Part shown: piece by piece, positions 3,287 through 14,769 of the stretch
Numbering within the stretch: the first letter of the stretch is position 1
Layout of the letters: each line of letters starts with the position of its first letter
DNA from: a virus
Virus record (IMG/VR): IMGVR_UViG_3300045120_000508
Span: 1 to 21,470 of that record
Reading direction: 5' to 3' (one strand)
DNA: 21,470 nucleotides
Made by a program: the position numbers and the translations under genes
Notes under the pieces: model-generated
The model's database searches: none
Told to the model about the DNA's origin: nothing
The model's input: only the letters and a program-made list of their open reading frames with translations

Positions 3287-4408
3287 ATGCCTCGTTCTTA
3301 CATAGTCGCACCCGGTGTCTATCTCAATGAGACGGGCACGCGTAGCTATATTGTCGCTCCCGGCGTCTATGTAAACGAAACCGAATCCTTCGTTTCCTCC
3401 TGGCAGCAGCCGCTCTCAATACCGGTTCGATCCAGGAAAGTCGCCGCGGCCCTCCTGGTTGCCGCCTGCTGCTGGACGCCGTTTACCCCGAGCGGGGCGG
3501 AAACCGTCACCGTCGACAAGTGGTACCAGCCACTCTCGACGCCGGTCCGCGACGCCGCCTTCGAAGTCATCTCCAACACCACGAACTTCGTTGTCCCGCC
3601 CGACAACGGCAATCTGGACAAATGGTATCGGCCATTGTCCGAGCCAACACGCCGGAAGCCTCCGCCGGCTCAGCAGGCGCTGGCTTGGAGCGGGTTCACC
3701 CCGGCGGCGGAAGTCGTTACCATCGATAAGTGGTATGCGGCTTGGCGCGAGCCGGTCCAGGACAAGGCGTTCGAAGTCGTTTCCGACATCGCTGCTTTTG
3801 CCGCTATCCCCACTCCTGCCGCTACCATTACCGAAGACGAATGGCATCAGGCATGGTCCGTACCCGTTCGTCTGAAACCGGGGCTGCGCGGCTACCTGCA
3901 GCAACCGCTGACGTTCGTCGCGAAGCCCGTCGTTTCCTTCTCGTGGTTCAACTCGCTCAACGAGCCGCCGAAGACAAAGAAGCTCAGCGCCTCCCAGCAG
4001 CAGGCTGTCGCCTGGGTTCCGTTCCGCGAAGTTGTCACCGAGGACAAGTGGCATCAGCCCTGGTCCGAGCCTGTCCGCCGCAAGCCGCCGCTGCGCATCG
4101 CGCCCGAGACGGCGATGGTGCCGTTCGCGACGCCGTACGCCGTCGTCAGCTTCGGCTGGAACGTCCCGCAGAACGATCTCGCGCCGCGCCGCAAGCCGGG
4201 GCTGGAAGCGCGTTACCAGCAAGCCGCGGCTTTCTACCCCTATCCGATCGTTCCCATCACCCTGGCGGTCATGGCCGCGACCGAGACGCCGGATGTGATG
4301 GATACCGACGGAATCGCCTATAGTCCGCCTTCCGGCGCCCTTGTGGGCGTCATCGAGCTGTCGACGGATTCGGTCCCAACCGCGATCGTCTCGATCCGGC
4401 AGCGGTGA
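3287..4408 (+). CDS. Trp-repeat phage structural protein (eight ~36-residue repeats)
   Basis: A 373-residue protein. The N-terminus is a tandem duplication: RSYIVAPGVYLNET (residues 3-16) and RSYIVAPGVYVNET (19-32). It is followed by eight repeats marked by Trp at residues 39, 79, 113, 149, 186, 220, 255 and 291 (spacing 34-40). The repeat core is W[YH]QP[LW]S.PVR.K, clearest at WYQPLSTPVR, WHQAWSVPVRLKPGL and WHQPWSEPVRRKP. The C-terminal ~50 residues (AVMAATETPDV...LVGVIE...IVSIRQR) resemble the small protein encoded at 7347. No membrane segment or catalytic motif stands out; the short hydrophobic AAALLVAACC stretch (~53-62) lies between repeats. I recall similar WHQPWSEPVR proteins in Rhizobiales phages and prophages, always without known function. 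The gene is strikingly GC-rich (43 of 60 bases at 3661-3720). It lies just before the tailspike, so a fibre or baseplate-like scaffold role is plausible. Confidence 0.7.
   Translation: MPRSYIVAPGVYLNETGTRSYIVAPGVYVNETESFVSSWQQPLSIPVRSRKVAAALLVAACCWTPFTPSGAETVTVDKWYQPLSTPVRDAAFEVISNTTNFVVPPDNGNLDKWYRPLSEPTRRKPPPAQQALAWSGFTPAAEVVTIDKWYAAWREPVQDKAFEVVSDIAAFAAIPTPAATITEDEWHQAWSVPVRLKPGLRGYLQQPLTFVAKPVVSFSWFNSLNEPPKTKKLSASQQQAVAWVPFREVVTEDKWHQPWSEPVRRKPPLRIAPETAMVPFATPYAVVSFGWNVPQNDLAPRRKPGLEARYQQAAAFYPYPIVPITLAVMAATETPDVMDTDGIAYSPPSGALVGVIELSTDSVPTAIVSIRQR
3293..3382 (+). repeat. tandem 14-codon duplication at the start of the Trp-repeat gene
   Basis: Codons 3-16 (3293-3334) and 19-32 (3341-3382) encode the same peptide except for one Leu to Val change. 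The DNA differs by synonymous change in eight of the 14 codons (for example TCT versus AGC for Ser, GCA versus GCT for Ala). The copies are therefore old at the DNA level and conserved at the protein level. Confidence 0.85.
3401..4204 (+). repeat. array of eight ~36-residue coding repeats
   Basis: The repeats are marked by TGG codons at 3401, 3521, 3623, 3731, 3842, 3944, 4049 and 4157. Consensus is W[YH]QP[LW]S.PVR.K, often preceded by T[EV]DK or ITED. The sixth copy (WFNSLNEPPKTKK) and eighth copy (WNVPQNDLAPRRKP) are the most diverged. The units are visible in protein but are not identical in DNA. Confidence 0.8.
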
Positions 4409-4417
4409 GCATTCGAT

Positions 4418-7342
4418 ATGACGATTTCGAAGTTTTACAATCGGGTCATGTTCCAGGCGGTGGCCGGGGGCACGGGCAATTTCATCGTCAACACCGCGAT
4501 CAGCGGTTACAGCACCCCTGCCCAGCGCGGCGTGACTGATGGCGCGACCGTTTCTTATACGGCCGAATCGCTCGACAAGACCCAGTGGGAAGTCGGTACC
4601 GGGGTCTACACCGCGGCCTCGACCACAGTGGCGCGAACGACCATTCGCGAGAGTTCGAACGCCAACCTGATTGTCAACTTCAGCGCGTCTCCGATCGTGT
4701 TTCTGGATTACCAGGCGCAAGATATCGATACCGCTCCGGACTGGGTCAACGTCTGGGACTTTGGAGCAGATCCAACCAACACGACCGATTCTACCACGGC
4801 AATCCAGGCGGCGATTGATTACGCCTACGCCAATGGCGTTGGGACCATTTACATTCCTTCCGGGAATTACAAGGTTTCTGATTCTCTTTATCTTGATCCG
4901 CCAGGGAATCTTAGGTCAAATTTTGCCAACCCAACGATTTTCAATTTCTCGTTGGCACTGATCGGCGATCCGGGGCTGCCGAATGCTGAAGGCGACGGAA
5001 CGCAACTTCTCTACACCGTTGATGATCGTGGAGCGCTTTATGTCGGACCAGGGCAAGGTATGTTGGTTAAGGATCTCAACATCCGTGGCCCTGGCGGCCT
5101 TTGGCATATTCAGCAGAATATTAATGGAATCGGGTTGGGGCTGACTGGAGGTAGCGGGGGGTCAACCCGCGCAAGGATTGAGAATGTATTTGTGGCTAGT
5201 TTCTATACCAGCTTCAAAACTGGAGCTAATAACTTCAATGCGCTTTGCGATTCCAACACCTTTATAAAGTGCTGGGCTTATAATGGCTACTACGGATTTT
5301 ATCTCGCTCAGACTCAGAATTTCATCAATAGCTTTATCGATTGCCAGCCTGATTGCCACTTCGGCGTTTATAATCCCAACGGGGTTGACGTTAAGGTTCT
5401 TGGCGGCAATTACACTGCAAGCGGAGTCGTGGCTTCATTTGCTATTTCGGCAGTCTCCGCGCTGACTGTTGCGGCGGCTGGTAATTCGTTTAACTATACA
5501 TTCACCGCCGTCATCACTACCCCAGATTTTTTCTGGACAGGTGGTTCTAACGGTCCGGCTTACGACACCTTCTCGTTTGAGACCGCGCATTTCGGCGTAG
5601 TTCCGTGCACTCTAGTATCGTATGTCGCCGGAACTAAAACAGCTACTTTCAAGATCTACCCGATGTGGAGCTATTACAATTTCGGGCTTGATAACGCTAA
5701 AACCGCCTCGGATTTGGAAGCTGAGATTCAAGCCTGCTTGATAGTTTTTGCTGCGGAGCACGTTACCGCTTTTACCGGCAACAACTTCTCGATTGATGGC
5801 ATCCACATCGAGAATCCAAACACTCCTACGACTGTGGTTGACGGCCAGGTCGTCTTCGGGTCTAACCGGCCAAACACTATTAAAAATCTTTTTTGCAACT
5901 GGGATCCAACTGAGTCGAGCAGTTCGGCTAGCGGCAACCCAGATGTGCGCGCGAGATATATGTGCGGAGCGGCGCATTTTCCGTTCTTCACTACGGGCTC
6001 ACTTGGGACCGGAAGCGGCGTCAGCGATATCCGCATTTCGTCATGTACTTTGGGCAACGCTGTCCCAATGATGATAGATATCGTTGGCAACTCCTCGCTG
6101 ACCATCGACAATATTGATGGATATCTCAACGTTCGTTCGGGCGATTTTGGCGGCGAGATCAATGCTACGGACCCCAACAAACCGTATTATGAAGCTGGAG
6201 TTTTTGGAGATACCGATCATTTCTTTGTTTTTACATTCGCTGACAGTTGGCGTCGGAGCGGTTTTGGGTTCGCTCCTATGTGGGGTTGGCGGCCGGCTCC
6301 GTGGACTACTCCTGCCGTGCGATCGGGCGATGTCGCGGTTCTCAGTGGAGTTCTGCCGACATTGGCATCGCCGACTACGTGCAGCTACCCAATTCTTTGG
6401 GGCGGTCAAACATATCGCGAAGCCGCTTTTTCTAATGTCCCCACGAAGGAATTTTATTCAGCGCATTCTTGTTATAGTTACGGTCAAGACCTGACAACCG
6501 TCAACTGCCCTGGACTTAGCTGGTCGTACAAGGGGCATAGCTTTTGCGTCTACTGTAACGACACCAACTTCATATTTCCAGGGCTTGGGATTAAGCTCAA
6601 TGACGGGGTGAGCGATGTAGCGTATGTTGTTACGGGGACCTTTCCGAATCTCGGATACTTCACTGTTGCGAAATTGTCGGCTCTTCCGAGCGTTACCGGA
6701 ATGTTGTCGGGGCTAAAAACCACCGTATTCACTGGCTCGACAATCGTACAGGAAGCTTATGTGATCACTCCGGTTGGCCGTCCGCCAGGCGGCCAATTTT
6801 TAGGTGAGGGTTTTTACACCAGTCCTGCTACGAGTTTTGCGCTTGCAAGTACCGGCGGTCCGGTGAACGGGTTTGCGGCTTTTGCCAAAGATATAACAAT
6901 ATCGTGGTCAAGCACGACAATTTGGTTTAATACGAATGATGTTGGTATTACGCGCAATGCTGCCGGCGTATTGGAAGTAAATAACGGCACAGCGGGGACT
7001 TTCCGCGATCTGAAATTGCGAAATTTTCAGGTCACACAGTACATCGCGGTTCCGGCGCCTGTTACAAAGACTAACGACTTCACGGTTGCCGATACCGAGA
7101 CGTGGCTAATCAACAACAAGGCTGGTTCGACCTGTACCGTTACCTTGCCGGCACCTGCGAGCTATGCAGGGCGACAAATCACAATTAATAATTATCAGGC
7201 TCAGACAGTGGTTTCGGCGTCGGCAAATGTCGTTCCGCAGGTAGGCGGCGCGGCTGCTACTGCGATCCTCCCAGGGACGGCAGGCAAGTGGGCTACGCTC
7301 GTCAGCGACGGAACGAATTGGGTAATCATGCAATCGGGATAA
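4418..7342 (+). CDS. pectate-lyase-fold phage tailspike
   Basis: A 974-residue protein. Residues 1-105 (MTISKFYNRVMFQAV...QWEVGTGVYTAASTTVARTTI) form the usual phage N-terminal virion-attachment domain. At ~108-157, VWDFGADPTNTTDSTTAIQ, then a Gly-rich turn and IYIPSGNYKVSDSL, is the classic entry to a right-handed beta-helix of the Pectate_lyase_3 / tailspike type. Residues ~160-870 are Asn/Gly-rich with many short strands and aromatic ladders, as in a parallel beta-helix. The last ~80 residues (DTETWLINNKAGSTCTVTLPAP...GKWATLVSDGTNWVIMQS) are a C-terminal domain found on many tail fibres, likely trimerising. Such spikes bind and often cleave capsular or O-antigen polysaccharide; which residues are catalytic cannot be read here. 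The beta-helix part is AT-richer than the flanks, suggesting exchange. Length fits the family. Start at 4418 is the first ATG after the upstream stop. Confidence 0.85.
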   Translation: MTISKFYNRVMFQAVAGGTGNFIVNTAISGYSTPAQRGVTDGATVSYTAESLDKTQWEVGTGVYTAASTTVARTTIRESSNANLIVNFSASPIVFLDYQAQDIDTAPDWVNVWDFGADPTNTTDSTTAIQAAIDYAYANGVGTIYIPSGNYKVSDSLYLDPPGNLRSNFANPTIFNFSLALIGDPGLPNAEGDGTQLLYTVDDRGALYVGPGQGMLVKDLNIRGPGGLWHIQQNINGIGLGLTGGSGGSTRARIENVFVASFYTSFKTGANNFNALCDSNTFIKCWAYNGYYGFYLAQTQNFINSFIDCQPDCHFGVYNPNGVDVKVLGGNYTASGVVASFAISAVSALTVAAAGNSFNYTFTAVITTPDFFWTGGSNGPAYDTFSFETAHFGVVPCTLVSYVAGTKTATFKIYPMWSYYNFGLDNAKTASDLEAEIQACLIVFAAEHVTAFTGNNFSIDGIHIENPNTPTTVVDGQVVFGSNRPNTIKNLFCNWDPTESSSSASGNPDVRARYMCGAAHFPFFTTGSLGTGSGVSDIRISSCTLGNAVPMMIDIVGNSSLTIDNIDGYLNVRSGDFGGEINATDPNKPYYEAGVFGDTDHFFVFTFADSWRRSGFGFAPMWGWRPAPWTTPAVRSGDVAVLSGVLPTLASPTTCSYPILWGGQTYREAAFSNVPTKEFYSAHSCYSYGQDLTTVNCPGLSWSYKGHSFCVYCNDTNFIFPGLGIKLNDGVSDVAYVVTGTFPNLGYFTVAKLSALPSVTGMLSGLKTTVFTGSTIVQEAYVITPVGRPPGGQFLGEGFYTSPATSFALASTGGPVNGFAAFAKDITISWSSTTIWFNTNDVGITRNAAGVLEVNNGTAGTFRDLKLRNFQVTQYIAVPAPVTKTNDFTVADTETWLINNKAGSTCTVTLPAPASYAGRQITINNYQAQTVVSASANVVPQVGGAAATAILPGTAGKWATLVSDGTNWVIMQSG

Positions 7343-7346
7343 GAAC

Positions 7347-7592
7347 ATGATGGGATTTGCGCCTCTTGCCGCCGTTCCGCTCGCTGCAAGAGAGAGCTTC
7401 TCGCCGTTTACCATCTCGTTCACCGCTGTCTTGTCGGCGATCGAGTTTGCCGATACCGCCTTGTTCGGCGGCATCATGTTCAACGCGCCGGTTGATGGTA
7501 TTGTCGGCGTGATCGAGGACGCCGTGCCTCTGCCCGTCGCGGCACCGGTCGTTGCTTTGCCGTCGGTCAACATAGCTATCCGCGAGCGGTAA
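7347..7592 (+). CDS. small phage protein related to the C-terminus of the Trp-repeat protein
   Basis: An 81-residue protein beginning at ATGATG, five bases after the tailspike stop. It contains FTISFTAVLSAIEFADTALF, then VDGIVGVIED and ends VNIAIRER. The end of the Trp-repeat protein (AVMAATETPDV...GALVGVIE...IVSIRQR) has the same layout: AV.A.E..D, then VGVIE and a terminal I.IR.R. I infer a shared small beta module present in two copies on either side of the tailspike gene. No function is known to me. It carries no signal peptide or cysteine. The start could equally be the second ATG. Being so small it might be a spike-associated adaptor or decoration protein, but nothing proves it. Confidence 0.6.
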   Translation: MMGFAPLAAVPLAARESFSPFTISFTAVLSAIEFADTALFGGIMFNAPVDGIVGVIEDAVPLPVAAPVVALPSVNIAIRER

Positions 7593-7629: not shown

Positions 7630-7908
7630 GTGGCATACAATATTACTCAAGGTAGTACGGTCGAATTCACGGTCGAATTCCTTGATTCGAGCGGCAATCT
7701 CACTGTGCCATCGGGCGCAACGCTGACCATGACCTATACGTCAATTTCCGGCACGACGGCCTCTTCGACCATCACCATGACGCAATCCAACCAGTTCTTC
7801 ATCGCGACCTGGGGCTCCGGCCAGGCGAAGGTGGGCTTTGCCAACTACTCGATCATCGGGACCGGCGGGACGCCCGCGCTCGGGCAGCTTCGCCTCCTTG
7901 GACCATAG
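7630..7908 (+). CDS. small Ig-like beta-sandwich phage protein
   Basis: A 92-residue protein with a GTG start at 7630, preceded by GGGGA at 7620-7624. The first residues are MAYNITQGSTVEFTVEFLDS. The rest (LTMTYTSISGTTASSTITMTQ...FIATWGSGQAKVGFANYSIIG) follows the seven-strand text of small immunoglobulin-like or BppU/virion domains: strand, 'D.SGN...P', strand, 'F.A.W.S..A..G...YSI' and a final RLLGP. Such proteins decorate heads or tails. It lies between the tailspike group and the adaptor genes with only seven bases before the next start. The 37 bases upstream (7593-7629) hold its ribosome binding site and show no promoter or terminator I can support. Confidence 0.65.
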   Translation: MAYNITQGSTVEFTVEFLDSSGNLTVPSGATLTMTYTSISGTTASSTITMTQSNQFFIATWGSGQAKVGFANYSIIGTGGTPALGQLRLLGP

Positions 7909-7915
7909 GTGAACC

Positions 7916-8614
7916 ATGTTTCCGGCTGCCGTTAAAACCACTCGCTCATACGACTTCAATCCCTCGGGCGCCGAGATCGTCCTGGACGCGTTCGGGCGCT
8001 GCCAGATCAGGCCGTCCGAGATCACGCAATCGCACATGTTCGCCGCGCGCATGAAGCTGAATTTGCTGCTAAGCGAGTGGTCCAACAACCAGGTGAACCT
8101 GTGGGAAGTGAACCTGCAATCCATCCCGCTCGTTCAAGGATCGGCCACATACTCGGTGCCAGCCGAGATCGTCATGATCCTGGATATGTATATTTCCTAC
8201 GGCACGCCATCCGTCGACCGCTACCTCAATCCGCTGTCTCGCACAGAATACACTGCCATCGCCAACAAGACGGCACAAGGCTCTCCCTCGCAGTTCTGGT
8301 TCAACCGGCTGATCTCGCCGACGGTGACGTTCTATCTGGTTCCGGACGGCGCGCTGTCCTACACCGCAAAATACTACGCGGTGCGGCAGACCCAGGATGC
8401 CGATGTCACCAACGGTTATAACGTCGAAGTGCAGAGCCGCTGGATGGCGGCATTTACCGCCGGCTTGGCCTGGATGTTGTCCGAGACCTACATGCCGCAG
8501 TTGGAAGACAAGCTGTTCGCGCGCTATCAGCGCGCATGGAACATTGCGGCGGCCCAGGATACGGAAAACGCCCCGCTCTACATTGGTCCGCAGTTGGGAT
8601 CGTACTTCCGATGA
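7916..8614 (+). CDS. P22 gp4-like head-tail adaptor (tail accessory factor)
   Basis: A 232-residue mostly helical protein. The text ALDAFGRCQIRPSEIT-type (here VLDAFGRCQIRPSEITQSHM) followed by AARMKLNLLLSEWSNNQVNLWEVN is typical of the P22 gp4 / podovirus adaptor family. Those proteins form a ring below the portal after packaging and bridge to the tail. The middle has 'GSATYSVPAEIVMILDMYI' and later FWFNRLISPTVTFYLVPDG, a beta insertion seen in these adaptors. The C-terminal AAFTAGLAWMLSETY...LEDKLFARYQRAWNIAAAQDTE is a long helix pair. AGGTGA lies at 7907-7912 before ATG 7916, and its TGA overlaps the next ATG (ATGA). Family assignment rests on remembered motifs. P22 gp4 has also been described as having a muralytic activity; no such active site is claimed here. 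Confidence 0.7.
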   Translation: MFPAAVKTTRSYDFNPSGAEIVLDAFGRCQIRPSEITQSHMFAARMKLNLLLSEWSNNQVNLWEVNLQSIPLVQGSATYSVPAEIVMILDMYISYGTPSVDRYLNPLSRTEYTAIANKTAQGSPSQFWFNRLISPTVTFYLVPDGALSYTAKYYAVRQTQDADVTNGYNVEVQSRWMAAFTAGLAWMLSETYMPQLEDKLFARYQRAWNIAAAQDTENAPLYIGPQLGSYFR

Positions 8615-9438
8615 GCTTCCGTCCGCACGGCAAAGCATCTGTCGACTCGCGTTCGCCGCGGGCGCTGGGGGTATGCGATCGGTGCGGCTTCATGTATAAT
8701 CACGACGCCCTACAGGACCAGCTGCGTTACCGCGGCCCCCGTCTGCAGAACCTCGGCCTTCTTGTCTGCCTATCCTGCCTCGATATTCCCAACGAGCAGG
8801 AACGTACTATCGTTCTTCCGCCGGATCCAATACCGATTAACTTCGCGCGGCCGGAAAACTACGTGGTCGCTGACAACCCTGTTTCTGGACTGGGCTACGA
8901 TCCGGCCAATGCCTTCCTGCCGACAACGCAGTTTGGCATGAGCATAGGCAACATGGTGATGGGCGCTGGCGTCAACGCCGCTTTCGATGGCGGGGTTGTG
9001 GTCAGCTCCGTCGCTACGACCGTCAGCCGCGGCTTCTCCAACTGCGCCAATCTGGCCAACAGCGTCTCAGGATTCAACAATTGGGTAGGAAAGAACTGGG
9101 CGGCCGATGCGACCGGCGGCCTCACGACGACGCCTTCGACCGTTACCCCGCAGACGCATGTCGTGTCGAGCTTCACGCTGATCGCCCCCGCCGACCAGCC
9201 CTTTCTGCTGACGGGAGCCGCTCAGTATCGTATTCAAGGATCCGACAACGGCGCCACCTGGTCGACCCTCGCCTTTGGAACGACAGCCGGCACCGCAGGC
9301 GAGATCATTACTGATGACGCGATCACGCAGGCGCCCTACCAGTACCATCGCGCAGTCATCCGGGGAGATGGCGTATCGCAAGTCGGAATTGCGCAGCTCG
9401 TGTTGAATATCTCCGACGCAGGGGCCAATGACATATGA
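8611..9438 (+). CDS. zinc-knuckle plus beta-sandwich phage virion protein
   Basis: A 275-residue protein. I choose ATG 8611, which overlaps the upstream TGA as ATGA, rather than an in-frame ATG at 8536 inside the upstream gene. An N-terminal zinc-knuckle is plain: C22-D-R-C25 and C53-L-S-C56, around a basic helical stretch (DQLRYRGPRLQNL). It is followed by LDIPNEQERTIVLPPDPIPI. Residues ~140-275 (GWNNWVGKNWA-like text, SSFTLIAPADQPFLLTGAAQ, YRIQGSDNGATWSTLAFG, ... YQYHRAVIRGDG) look like a galactose-binding/discoidin-like beta-sandwich. I recall the 'CDRCGF.YN...L..Q....G..LQNL..LVC..CLD' signature as conserved in podovirus structural clusters, unnamed. The knuckle is probably structural. 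A virion location is inferred from position between two adaptors. Confidence 0.7.
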   Translation: MSFRPHGKASVDSRSPRALGVCDRCGFMYNHDALQDQLRYRGPRLQNLGLLVCLSCLDIPNEQERTIVLPPDPIPINFARPENYVVADNPVSGLGYDPANAFLPTTQFGMSIGNMVMGAGVNAAFDGGVVVSSVATTVSRGFSNCANLANSVSGFNNWVGKNWAADATGGLTTTPSTVTPQTHVVSSFTLIAPADQPFLLTGAAQYRIQGSDNGATWSTLAFGTTAGTAGEIITDDAITQAPYQYHRAVIRGDGVSQVGIAQLVLNISDAGANDI

Positions 9439-10154
9439 CTTTGACATATGACAGCTTCGTCACCCAGCTCGCCAACATGGCGCCCGTGTCGTCCGCCAAT
9501 GCGGAGTTTCTCACCGCGCTGCCCGGCGTAATCGACTACGCCGAAGGCCGCATCTACCGCGAGCTGGATCTGCTTTCCGTCCGCGTTACCGACACGTCCG
9601 TCTCGTGCTCATCAGGCGTTCGATCCATCAACCTGTCGACGACGCAGGGAACGCTGCTTGTCGTGGATCGCCTCAACATCTTCACGCCGGTCGGCACGAC
9701 ATCGACCAACACGACACGCAGCCCGACCTACTTCACAAGCCCCGACTTCGTGGACGCAAGCTACCCGTCGGCTACTTCCTCGCTGACTGGCGTGCCCGAG
9801 TTCGCCGCCCGCGTGAATGACACGCAGATCATCTTCGGGCCCACGCCGGATGAGGCATATGGAACAGAAGTCGTGGCGACGATCCGCCCGAACCCACTGT
9901 CATCGGGCAACAGCAGCACATGGCTGACACAGAACCTGCCGGAGCTGTTCTTTGCCGGAGCCATGGTATTCTACACCGGCTACCAGAAGAACTTCGGCTC
10001 GCAGGGTGACGATCCGCAATCGGCGCAGTCGTGGGAAAATGTTTTTACCACGTTGCTCAAGACAGCTGCAGTCGACTCGCTGCGCGCCAAGATCCAATCG
10101 CAAGGCTGGACCCCGCAAATTCCCAATCCGATCGCAACCCCGCCGAGGGCCTGA
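9435..10154 (+). CDS. SU10-type / podovirus head-tail adaptor
   Basis: A 239-residue protein starting in an ATGA overlap with the previous stop. The N-terminus (MTLTYDSFVTQLANMAPV...FLTALPGVIDYAEGRIYRELDLL) is the hallmark of the phage adaptor family I know from SU10-like podoviruses. It is a helical pair ending in 'IDYAE.RIYRELDL'. The middle beta region carries ...PEFAARVNDTQIIFGPTPD and the C-terminus NLPELFFAGAMVFYTGYQKNF...QSWENVFTTLLKTAAVD is helical, a common adaptor ending. It is expected to sit between portal and nozzle. A tandem TGA-TAA stop (10152-10157) separates it from the next gene, which is in the same frame. Confidence 0.75.
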   Translation: MTLTYDSFVTQLANMAPVSSANAEFLTALPGVIDYAEGRIYRELDLLSVRVTDTSVSCSSGVRSINLSTTQGTLLVVDRLNIFTPVGTTSTNTTRSPTYFTSPDFVDASYPSATSSLTGVPEFAARVNDTQIIFGPTPDEAYGTEVVATIRPNPLSSGNSSTWLTQNLPELFFAGAMVFYTGYQKNFGSQGDDPQSAQSWENVFTTLLKTAAVDSLRAKIQSQGWTPQIPNPIATPPRA

Positions 10155-10157
10155 TAA

Positions 10158-12200
10158 GTGCCGCTTGCGACCACCATACTTCGGCCCGGCGTGAATTCAC
10201 AGCGTACGTTGGCTGGAAATGAAGCTGGCGTATCGGTATCGAATCTCATTCGGTACAAGGACCAGATCATTCAGAAGACCGGCGGCTGGAACCAATTCTA
10301 TACCGGCACCTTCGGCTCGACGATCCGCGACATTCATGCCTGGCAGGGATCGACGGGAACCGGATATCTCGCGGTCGCGACCACCGGATCGACCGGCGCA
10401 CTAAACGTCATTACCGCGGGCTCGCTTGGCGATCTGTCGCCGCAGACCAACACTACAAACCACGCCGTCAATTTCTCGATCTCATCGGGAAGCGCGCTGG
10501 TCACGATCGTCGATGTTGGTTCGAGCGCATCGGTCTACGACACGATCTATCTCAATACGCCGGTTGCGATCGGCAACCTGCTCCTGAACGGGGCCTACGC
10601 CGTCACGACCGCGCTTGGATCGAGCGCCTACCAGATCACGTCCAGCGTTGTCGCTTCGACTACCATTGCCAGCAGTGGCACATTGCCAACGTTCACGACC
10701 GCAGCGGGCGAAGCGTCGGTTCTTGTCACACTCTCGAACCACAATTTCCAGGCTATACCGGGATTGCTGCAGCAATTCATCGCGCCAACGCCGACCAGCC
10801 CGTCAACCAGCTTGGTCATTCAAGGTTCTTACGAAATCAACTCGGTTATCGATTCCACCTCGTTTCGCATCACGGCTGCCACGGCGTCGACCGGCGCCGG
10901 CACAGTGACGATGAACAGCACATTGGCGCAGATCGTCTACTACATTTCGATTGGACCGCCTCCGACCGCCGGCGGCTATGGGCTCGGCGGCTATGGGCTT
11001 GGCGGCTACGGCATAGGATCTCCCGTTACGGGCGGTACCGGTACGCCGATCACGGCGACCGATTGGACGCTCGACAATTGGGGCGAGGCACTTCTGGCCT
11101 GCCCGACCGACGGTCCGATCTATGTGTGGTCGCCACGCAGCGGCTTCACGACAGCATCGGTGATCCCGACAGCGCCGTTCTTCAATGGCGGCATCTTCAT
11201 TTCCATGCCGCAGCAGATCCTGGTGGCTTGGCGTTCGACGCAATCAACCGGCGTTCAGGGGCCGCTCATTGTCCGCTGGTCGGATGCGGCGAATTACAAC
11301 GAGTGGACGGTTTCGAACCAGACGACTGCCGGCTCGTTCGTGATCCCGACCGGATCACGCATTATCGGCGGTCTACAGGCTCCATCTCAAGGCATAATCT
11401 GGACAGATGTTGACGTATGGGCGATGCAATACATTGGCGGCGACGTCGTATTCAACTTTACCCGAATCGGTTCTGGATGCGGATTGATCGGGCCGCATGC
11501 CGCCGGCGTTATTGCCGGAACCGTGTACTGGTGCAGCAACGCATTCCAATTCTTCCGGCTTGGGCAAAACGGCACCGAGCCTATTCCGTGCACGGTATGG
11601 GACTTCATTTTTCAGAACCTATCGACAGCGCAGCAAAGAAAGATCGTCTGCGCGCCCAACTCGGTCTTCAACGAGATCACATGGTATTTCCCTTCATCGT
11701 CCAGCACGGGCGAGAACGATTCGTACGTCAAGTATAATATCGTTGAAGGGGAATGGGACTACGGGACGCTTGCCCGAAACGCCTGGATCGACGTTACCGG
11801 GCAAGGTACGCCAATCGCGGCTGATACGCAGATCATATATCAACATGAACAGGGATATGATAACGTCAGCCAGCCGATAAATCCGATCTTCGAAACCGGC
11901 TACTGGTCAATCGCCGAAGGCAACGAGATGGCTTTTGTCGATTGGGTGCTGCCCGATATGAAATTCGGGACTTATTCGGGAGCGAAGACGGCGACATGCA
12001 GCATAACGTTTCTGGTTACGGATTACGCAGGTGACACGCCACGGGAATATGGCCCGTTCACGTATACGCAAACTACGCAGTACATCACGACACGATTTCG
12101 AGGGCGCTTCATGGCGATGAGAATTGAAAGCAATGATACCGGATCCTTCTGGCGCATCGGCGCTTTGAAGTATCGCTGGGCGCGGGCAGGGAGGCGCTGA
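10158..12200 (+). CDS. P22 gp10-like tail nozzle / hub protein
   Basis: A 680-residue protein starting at GTG 10158, with GAGGG at 10145-10149 at normal spacing. It opens MPLATTILRPGVNSQRTLA, then NLIRYKDQIIQKTGGWNQF. Repeated WSPRSGF / VRWSDAANYNEWTVS / IIWTDVDVWAMQYIGG units are the blades of a beta-propeller. The end (FGTYSGAKTATCSITFLV..., FRGRFMAMRIESNDTGSFW) matches the C-terminal part of podovirus stabilisation/nozzle proteins (P22 gp10, SU10 nozzle type). In P22, gp10 assembles on the gp4 ring and seals the packaged genome. Residues 272-286 hold three exact-type copies of GGYG[LI], a flexible or exposed loop. Length is compatible with the family. The gene follows its expected adaptor partner and overlaps the next start as TGATG. 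Confidence 0.75.
   Translation: MPLATTILRPGVNSQRTLAGNEAGVSVSNLIRYKDQIIQKTGGWNQFYTGTFGSTIRDIHAWQGSTGTGYLAVATTGSTGALNVITAGSLGDLSPQTNTTNHAVNFSISSGSALVTIVDVGSSASVYDTIYLNTPVAIGNLLLNGAYAVTTALGSSAYQITSSVVASTTIASSGTLPTFTTAAGEASVLVTLSNHNFQAIPGLLQQFIAPTPTSPSTSLVIQGSYEINSVIDSTSFRITAATASTGAGTVTMNSTLAQIVYYISIGPPPTAGGYGLGGYGLGGYGIGSPVTGGTGTPITATDWTLDNWGEALLACPTDGPIYVWSPRSGFTTASVIPTAPFFNGGIFISMPQQILVAWRSTQSTGVQGPLIVRWSDAANYNEWTVSNQTTAGSFVIPTGSRIIGGLQAPSQGIIWTDVDVWAMQYIGGDVVFNFTRIGSGCGLIGPHAAGVIAGTVYWCSNAFQFFRLGQNGTEPIPCTVWDFIFQNLSTAQQRKIVCAPNSVFNEITWYFPSSSSTGENDSYVKYNIVEGEWDYGTLARNAWIDVTGQGTPIAADTQIIYQHEQGYDNVSQPINPIFETGYWSIAEGNEMAFVDWVLPDMKFGTYSGAKTATCSITFLVTDYAGDTPREYGPFTYTQTTQYITTRFRGRFMAMRIESNDTGSFWRIGALKYRWARAGRR
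10971..11015 (+). repeat. three tandem 15-base repeats in the nozzle gene
   Basis: Units at 10971-10985, 10986-11000 and 11001-11015 read GGCGGCTATGGGCTC with one change in the second and several in the third. They encode GGYGL, GGYGL and GGYGI. Being in frame and a multiple of three, the array could expand or contract without harming the reading frame. Confidence 0.85.
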
Positions 12201-13687: not shown

Positions 13688-14293
13688 ATGCCGCTGATAA
13701 AATCGGGTTCACGCAACGCCATCTCAACCAATATTTCGGAAATGGTTCATGCCGGGCATCCGCAGAACCAAGCGGTGGCGGCCGCCATGCGTAATGCCCG
13801 AAAGTACGGAAAGAATTTCGCTTCCGGAGGTACTTCCTGGCAGGAACGCGCTTCCGGCCGCGCCCTGGCCCACGAAGGCATGATCAAGTCGGCGGTGCCG
13901 GGGCGCACGGACGCGTTGCCCATCACGGTCGGAGGTGGGGCGTATATCCTGCCAGCCGAACATCTCGCGGCCATCGGGCAAGGCAACTCGATCGCCGGCG
14001 GCCAGATCGCCAATCAGATGCTCGGGCTTTCCAAGAAAGGCGGCTTGCGCACGCCGCGCGCCATCATTCACAAGCAAGGCCGGATGAAGATGCCGAAGAT
14101 CGCCGATGGCGGCGCGGCACCCGACGTTGATATCGTCGCAGCTGGCGGTGAATATGTCGTGAGTCCGGAAAAGGTACGCGAGATCGGCGGTGGCGATCTC
14201 GACAAAGGACATCGTGTGTTGGATGCGTGGGTGATGTCCACGCGCAAGCAGCATATTAAAACTCTCAAGAACCTCAAACCGCCGAAGAAATGA
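13688..14293 (+). CDS. phage protein with HPxxQAVA motif and duplicated Gly-rich module
   Basis: A 201-residue protein with AAGGTG at 13677-13682 as ribosome binding site. The N-terminus SISTNI-like text (here AISTNISEMVHAGHPQNQAVAAAMRNARKYG) matches a small helical domain (DUF6496-like, from memory) common in phage genes. Two related modules follow: ITVGGGAYILPAEHLAAIGQGN (~82-103 region) and IVAAGGEYVVSPEKVREIGGGD (~149-170 region). They share 'GG.Y.[LV].PE.[LV]..IG.G[ND]', a signature I know from ejection or internal virion proteins. FASGG (44-48) and IADGG (138-142) echo motifs in the large protein downstream. The C-terminus is basic (MSTRKQHIKTLKNLKPPKK), as for a DNA-contacting tail. 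Its stop overlaps the next start as ATGA. Packaged with the genome is a plausible inference. Confidence 0.65.
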   Translation: MPLIKSGSRNAISTNISEMVHAGHPQNQAVAAAMRNARKYGKNFASGGTSWQERASGRALAHEGMIKSAVPGRTDALPITVGGGAYILPAEHLAAIGQGNSIAGGQIANQMLGLSKKGGLRTPRAIIHKQGRMKMPKIADGGAAPDVDIVAAGGEYVVSPEKVREIGGGDLDKGHRVLDAWVMSTRKQHIKTLKNLKPPKK

Positions 14294-14769
14294 CAGCACC
14301 TTCTATCGTTCGCGTGGCCGGCCCGGATGATTACGCCGAAGTCTGGCGGCTGTTTCTGACCGGGCACGCCGAGAATGGGATCTTCGAGCTGGCCCCGCAA
14401 AAGGTCGAGCACTTCGTCAGCCGCGCGCTCTGGCCGGAGCGCATAGACCCTATGGATACCGGTCCGCGCGGCGTTATCGGCGTCATCGGCGCCCCAGGGG
14501 CTCTGGAAGCCCTGGCGTTTCTGGTGATCGGCGAAGTGTGGTACACCCGTGACAAGCATGTCGGAGACTGCTTCGTGTTTGTCGCTCCCGATCATCGCCG
14601 CTCCCGGCACGCCATGGCGCTTCTGGAATGGATGAAGCATCAGGCTAGGCTGACGGCGTTGCCGCTGATGAGCGGGGTCGTTTCGACCGAGCGGACGGAA
14701 GCCAAATGCGTGCTCTACCGGCGCATGTTCCCGAAGGTCGGCGAAGTGTTTTTGTGGCATAGCAGTTAG
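14290..14769 (+). CDS. GNAT-fold acyltransferase-like protein
   Basis: A 159-residue protein starting in an ATGA overlap. The text reads as a GNAT: an N-terminal VAGPDDYAEVWRLFL helix, a central ALAFLVIGEVWYTRDKHV strand pair, then DCFVFVAPDHRRSRHAMALLEWMKHQA. The last segment corresponds to motif A, where VAP.HRRS.H replaces the classical Q/RxxGxG/A but keeps the basic, helix-capping layout used to bind acetyl-CoA pyrophosphate. A C-terminal KCVLYRRMFPKVGEVFLW strand completes the fold. Such proteins are frequently encoded in podovirus structural operons, beside ejection proteins, with unknown substrate. It may modify a virion protein or a host factor, but it may also have lost activity. No substrate can be read from the sequence. 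Confidence 0.75.
   Translation: MTAPSIVRVAGPDDYAEVWRLFLTGHAENGIFELAPQKVEHFVSRALWPERIDPMDTGPRGVIGVIGAPGALEALAFLVIGEVWYTRDKHVGDCFVFVAPDHRRSRHAMALLEWMKHQARLTALPLMSGVVSTERTEAKCVLYRRMFPKVGEVFLWHSS

Follow-up and report, generated by a model that had tools for sequence, protein, structure and literature searches.

A modular tryptophan-repeat protein family encoded near adaptor genes of environmental phages

The tail-fibre shafts of phage T4 (gp34, gp37 and gp12) are elongated and built from quasi-repeats close in length to the units described here, and choline-binding repeats are tandem, Trp-rich, surface-binding units of ~20 residues with conserved aromatic residues. Among phage surface proteins, phi29 gp8.5, T4 Hoc, T5 pb10 and N4 gp17 are head fibres or outer decoration proteins with a presumed role in host adhesion (PMC7602432), and the adaptors of SU10 carry long tail fibres (PMC9509320). 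Here we describe a Trp-repeat protein encoded by an uncultured virus of bacteria, in a stretch of 21,470 bases (IMG/VR virus record IMGVR_UViG_3300045120_000508) referred to below as the window. Our results indicate that this protein belongs to a widespread and apparently undescribed family, present in dozens of environmental phage contigs.

The repeat gene (3287..4408, plus strand, as are all its segments) is an ATG-started open frame of 373 aa, and homologous frames in other phages stand in a similar gene order. A 434-aa antisense frame at 3416-4720 was rejected as a gene, the conserved frame being the sense one. An earlier note had placed the repeat at 3401-4204, which lies inside the frame but spans residues 39-306 only. 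Outside the array lie the N-terminal segment (residues 1-36, 3287..3394), which contains RSYIVAPGVYxNETxx twice and is unlike the FQYQxKTEPV start found in many relatives, and residues 326-373 (4262..4405), which form a C-terminal module (MAATETPDVMDTDGIAY...VGVIEL...IVSIRQR) common to many members when the C-termini are compared side by side. Between them, a unit HMM recognizes unit 1 (W39, 3395..3514), unit 2 (W79, 3515..3616), unit 3 (W113, 3617..3724), unit 4 (W149, 3725..3835), unit 5 (W186, 3836..3937), unit 6 (W220, 3938..4042), unit 7 (W255, 4043..4150) and unit 8 (W291, 4151..4261). These eight repeat Trp, among 14 Trp in total, stand exactly where the note had put them, with a spacing of 34-40 residues.

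The eight-unit Trp repeat is far beyond chance. When the two halves of the protein were aligned with each other the score was 119, whereas 300 shuffles reached 63 at most. A unit HMM trained on 179 units from other phages, leaving out the window and its nearest relative, matched the protein in eight stretches with E = 1.8e-60. The eight-fold, ~36-residue repeat that had been proposed is thus recovered, except that unit 8 is degenerate: its Trp is retained, the core is gone, and the HMM matches only residues 301-325, in the second half of the unit (WNVPQNDLAPRR). The core W[YH]QP[LW]S.PVR.K had been assigned to most copies, but it is complete in unit 7 alone (WHQPWSEPVRRK); most other units differ from it by one to a few residues, and the core of unit 6 is weak and partly degenerate (WFNSLNEPPKTK).

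Relatives were collected from IMG/VR with protein seeds and two degenerate DNA patterns for W..P[LW]SEPVR. With the unit profile, these scans gave 70 non-redundant open frames with ~555 units and 1-21 units per protein, a count that includes the frame of the window itself, a doubtful one (L057) and several fragments from a single contig. The aligned units have the approximate consensus DKWHQP[LW]SEPVRxKxGLxAxxQQFLA...PxPxxPETVTE, and the Trp is in place in 503 of the 555 unit matches. Conservation of the spacing among relatives had been set beforehand as a test, and the spacing is indeed kept, the Trp-to-Trp distance being mostly 30-46 with a median of 36; a second cluster at about twice the median probably reflects a unit missed by the profile. 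The Trp core of ~12 residues aligns nearly without gaps while the linkers differ by many residues, a pattern more suggestive of linked beads than of a packed solenoid. An N-terminal motif resembling FQYQxKTEPV is present in 33 of the 58 members with a complete start (loose pattern), and many members end in a small module, xATETNxDxxxFxIxVY...AxVSIxE. Some members carry fused domains, namely Laminin_G_3 in L080, TIG in L003 and Gly_rich_2 in L024, and Laminin_G_3 genes adjoin the repeat gene in L002 and L005. Single-unit members occur, a single gene cluster can hold up to three members (L044, for example), and in several longer related contigs every match falls within one cluster. A scan of a contig collection (genome_contigs) gave seven loci, with a real array in L058 only; this contig, assigned to a Patescibacteria MAG, encodes a member with 11 units and is probably a phage contig. 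The L057 frame (Roseibium) is probably a chance match, and the remaining loci of that scan had no unit match.

Variation in copy number between relatives had also been proposed as a check, and it is evident when the window (8 units) is compared with L002 (14 units). The adaptors of the two are 93-95% identical and their repeat proteins 52% identical. Window units 2, 3, 4, 6, 7 and 8 pair in order with L002 units 3 (71% identity), 4 (82%), 11 (82%), 12 (71%), 13 (94%) and 14 (82%). L002 units 5-10 have no in-order counterpart in the window, and the corresponding place in L002 holds no partner for window unit 5, whose best L002 match is unit 9 (59%). This ordered pairing indicates in-frame gain or loss of entire units.

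In the libraries and collections searched the family is new, although its general kind, the repetitive phage surface protein, is already known. In Pfam, PHROGs, NCBIfam, PADLOC and PDB, the matches to the window protein did not rise above chance level: a Pfam scan up to E = 1 returned one chance match under the cut-off, none of the PHROGs tail families matched, and the solved structures in PDB, fibres and SU10 proteins included, had no sequence match. As regards the folds of head fibres and decoration proteins (Ig-like, coiled coil, beta-tulip and OB), the window protein had no match in Pfam, PHROGs or PDB and its AlphaFold2 model was of low confidence, and no Pfam profile of a choline-binding or other known cell-wall-binding Trp repeat matched the window protein or its relatives. 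The repeats were not found in 50,697 phage records searched by tblastn with five family members, two of them run at E up to 0.1. The sole match, a Streptomyces phage (two records), was rejected as repeat evidence because the matched region overlaps the fused TIG domain of L003. MW202675, the closest record with the entire tail block, had no unit match in the stretch examined, and in the literature the motif string was unmatched and no description of such a repeat was found.

In the window, the repeat gene is followed by a tailspike gene, an 81-aa gene, a 92-aa gene, an adaptor gene, a 300-aa gene, a second adaptor gene and a gene for a nozzle-like protein. The tailspike (4418..7342, +) has a pectate-lyase-like domain (PF12708, 2.5e-12; phrog_2234, 2.8e-15). 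A spike with the same N-terminus stands at the equivalent place in L002 (9600-11606) and is missing from most relatives; the first 132 residues of the two tailspikes are 83% identical and no further match was found, as befits an anchor that is kept while the receptor-binding part is swapped. The 81-aa gene (7347..7592, +) encodes a free-standing version of the C-terminal module of the repeat protein, with 39% identity (8e-11) to the C-terminal part of the repeat protein of L075 and 42% over 38 aa (2e-05) to that of the window. It stands after the tailspike gene and just before the 92-aa gene, and the arrangement is the same in L002. Since this gene copies the C-terminal module, the tailspike may have been inserted at, or within, a duplicate of the repeat gene.

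In many relatives the 92-aa gene (7630..7908, +) comes straight after the repeat gene; its similarity to small genes of L047 and L051 is too weak for a claim of homology. Of the two adaptor genes, the first (7916..8614, +; PF24175, 1.2e-07) is adaptor-like and of SU10 type and the second (9435..10154, +; PF24175, 3.4e-15) is an SU10-type adaptor gene; both score above the cut-off. The 300-aa gene between them (8536-9438) has two CxxC pairs resembling a small zinc ribbon, and its true start is probably near 8611, as the listed start overlaps the adaptor gene. The virion structural protein that follows (10158..12200, +; phrog_3287, 1.8e-56) is 43% identical to the "phage stabilization protein" of MW202675 and is probably a tail nozzle or stabilisation protein. 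A gene resembling those for ejection proteins is found further downstream in the same module. The structural gene block also contains a GNAT-type acetyltransferase gene (14290-14769), which is conserved in L013, L041 and L063, and the structural block of Roseobacter phage CRP-901 likewise holds a GNAT gene.

The place of the repeat gene was compared in the 57 members for which over 400 nt of sequence downstream was available. The 92-aa gene or an adaptor gene follows within 200 nt in 26 of these and further on in 13, and neither was found in the available flank of the other 18. In podovirus-type loci, namely L002, L008 and L013, the relatives in which the upstream major head protein gene was identified, the repeat gene comes after that gene and before the adaptor genes. 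PF24175 adaptors are present in the window and in all 11 related records tested (12/12), and many relatives, like the window, have the nozzle-like gene, so that the window has the PF24175 adaptor beside a nozzle-like protein that characterizes an SU10-type module; PF17236 (SU10 major capsid) matched nothing, its control included. In long-tailed L035 and L032 the repeat gene lies directly upstream of a PF05521 head completion gene, and in long-tailed L051 it is followed by a small gene, a PF05135 connector gene and, further on, the tape-measure gene. In most loci the gene is within the head-neck block, from major head protein to connector or adaptor, as for a head fibre or decoration protein, and in L051, L035 and L032 it is not among the tail-tip genes after the tape measure, where a tail fibre of long-tailed phages would be encoded. 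The exceptions are L029 and L078, with the repeat gene before the head protein gene, and L026 and L034, with the repeat gene near terminase- or portal-like genes. A gene place kept across tail types points to the head or neck rather than the tail tip. The earlier note had linked the repeat protein to the tailspike, and the two do adjoin in the window and L002, but many relatives have the 92-aa gene or the adaptor at once with no tailspike between, so the tailspike is a local neighbour rather than part of a conserved arrangement.

Other genes recur around the repeat gene. Just upstream of it, unrelated-looking proteins (L003:5886-6599, L008:6613-7332, L063:427-1299, L072:6364-7509 and L075:8501-9607) tend to share a short C-terminal tail finishing in GY, which could be a docking tag. 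In several loci of the other phage types, a small Cys-rich gene recurs upstream (L026:3528-3776, L035:1783-2064, L051:1234-1491, L053:3982-4239 and L058:4449-4709). The structural block of many relatives contains a conserved gene of ~290-360 aa (KIALIGTAPSSRMLAPF...ACSPGN; L002:3789-4655, L003:713-1690, L008:2746-3687, L042:3891-4970 and L087:7163-8035), three copies of which gave no Pfam match.

We tentatively favour, at somewhat less than an even chance, the reading that the repeat protein is an extended, flexible beads-on-a-string protein of the virion, located in the head-neck region and serving in multivalent adhesion much like a head fibre or neck whisker. Both a virion protein and a beads-on-a-string form had been suggested earlier; the former fits the gene context in short- and long-tailed phages, from which we infer virion membership, and the latter fits the range of 1-21 units, the variable linkers and the whole-unit gain and loss between close relatives. 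Each unit would consist of the short motif W-x-x-P-[LW]-S-E-P-V-R-x-K and a variable linker of ~20-30 residues to the next, and the C-terminal module and, in many relatives, the N-terminal FQYQxKTEPV motif would be the likely anchoring ends. Entire units would be duplicated or lost, probably via recombination between copies, and length and valency would thereby differ between related phages. We speculate, by analogy, that adhesion is mediated by the Trp cores and that the string would tether the particle, by numerous weak contacts, to the surface of the host or to its surroundings, a role parallel to that thought for Hoc, pb10 and the phi29 head fibres. The adhesin-type domains in some members (Laminin_G_3, TIG and Gly_rich_2) are counted for an adhesive string. 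A broader proposal, which is possible but somewhat doubtful, is that the family, occurring across more than one tail type, is an undescribed class of string proteins whose Trp-Pro-Ser-Glu-Pro-Val-Arg core would be a docking or ligand-binding bead, beads would be added or dropped to tune reach and valency, and adhesin domains would be plugged in. Against a head-neck string are the gene place, which is not uniform (L029, L078, L026 and L034), and the adjoining tailspike in the window and L002; fast divergence and unit loss would also fit a disordered region under weak constraint.

The AlphaFold2 models bear on several alternatives. For the window protein the mean pLDDT was 52.6 and the pTM 0.21 (monomer, 44 aligned rows), and for the three-unit relative L048 the mean pLDDT was 46.6, with a beta-hairpin, at low confidence, in the C-terminal module only; neither monomer model, from thin alignments, has a regular repeat fold or a solenoid-type pattern of secondary structure. 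The absence of a compact fold is as expected for a string, and low pLDDT in monomer models from thin alignments would fit a disordered string and an obligate trimer equally. A regular compact solenoid of Trp units, which had been suggested earlier, is not supported by these models, and although the mean regularity of unit length (median 36) speaks for it, we consider it very improbable given that the spacing spans 30-46 and the Pfam repeat families had no match. The trimer could be the shaft of a tail fibre or spike-associated fibre, with three wound chains, the unit as a segment and the unit count setting the length. At ~36 residues the repeats match quasi-repeats of known phage fibres in length, the tailspike adjoins in the window and L002, adaptors of the kind that bear the long tail fibres in SU10 stand next to the gene, and some members have glycine-rich or Laminin_G_3 domains fused to them. 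Such a shaft nevertheless seems unlikely, since linkers that differ by many residues are unusual in a regular shaft, single-unit members occur, tail fibres of long-tailed phages are not normally encoded ahead of head completion, and no solved fibre matches in sequence.

The same conserved linear core with its charged E and R and its variable linkers has the look of a docking motif, and with the Pro-rich composition, the lack of a predicted fold and the adjoining connector genes it would also suit a disordered scaffold, in which each Trp core docks a head, neck or tail subunit and tethers parts such as spikes rather than contacting the host. The adhesin-type fusions argue against such a scaffold, as does the range of 1-21 units among members of similar gene place, which indicates no fixed stoichiometry, and we regard it as distinctly unlikely. 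The nearby head genes and the ejection-protein-like gene downstream in the same module could suggest an internal protein that is packaged in the head and ejected together with the DNA, but the Laminin_G_3 and TIG fusions and the neighbours typical of outer surfaces make this highly improbable.

In comparison with known systems, the window resembles the SU10-type short-tailed neck and tail module in that its adaptors match PF24175 above the cut-off and its relatives share the block, whereas the repeat protein itself has no match to SU10 protein structures. The family likewise has no sequence match to the T4 gp34, gp37 and gp12 shafts, from which it also differs in its variable linkers and single-unit members. 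Like choline-binding repeats it is tandem with conserved aromatic residues, but with another pattern and no Pfam match. Head fibres and decoration proteins are built with Ig-like domains, or with a coiled coil in the case of gp8.5, whereas the family has a repeated Trp-Pro linear motif, most of the scanned members showed no detectable Ig domain, and no fold was predicted with confidence. Proteins otherwise read as hypothetical are now given a unit model and a gene place, and, if the units are adhesive beads, copy number would offer phages a simple and testable route to alter surface binding. What the family shares with head fibres and decoration proteins is its setting: those are surface proteins, and most loci of this family lie in the head-neck gene block.
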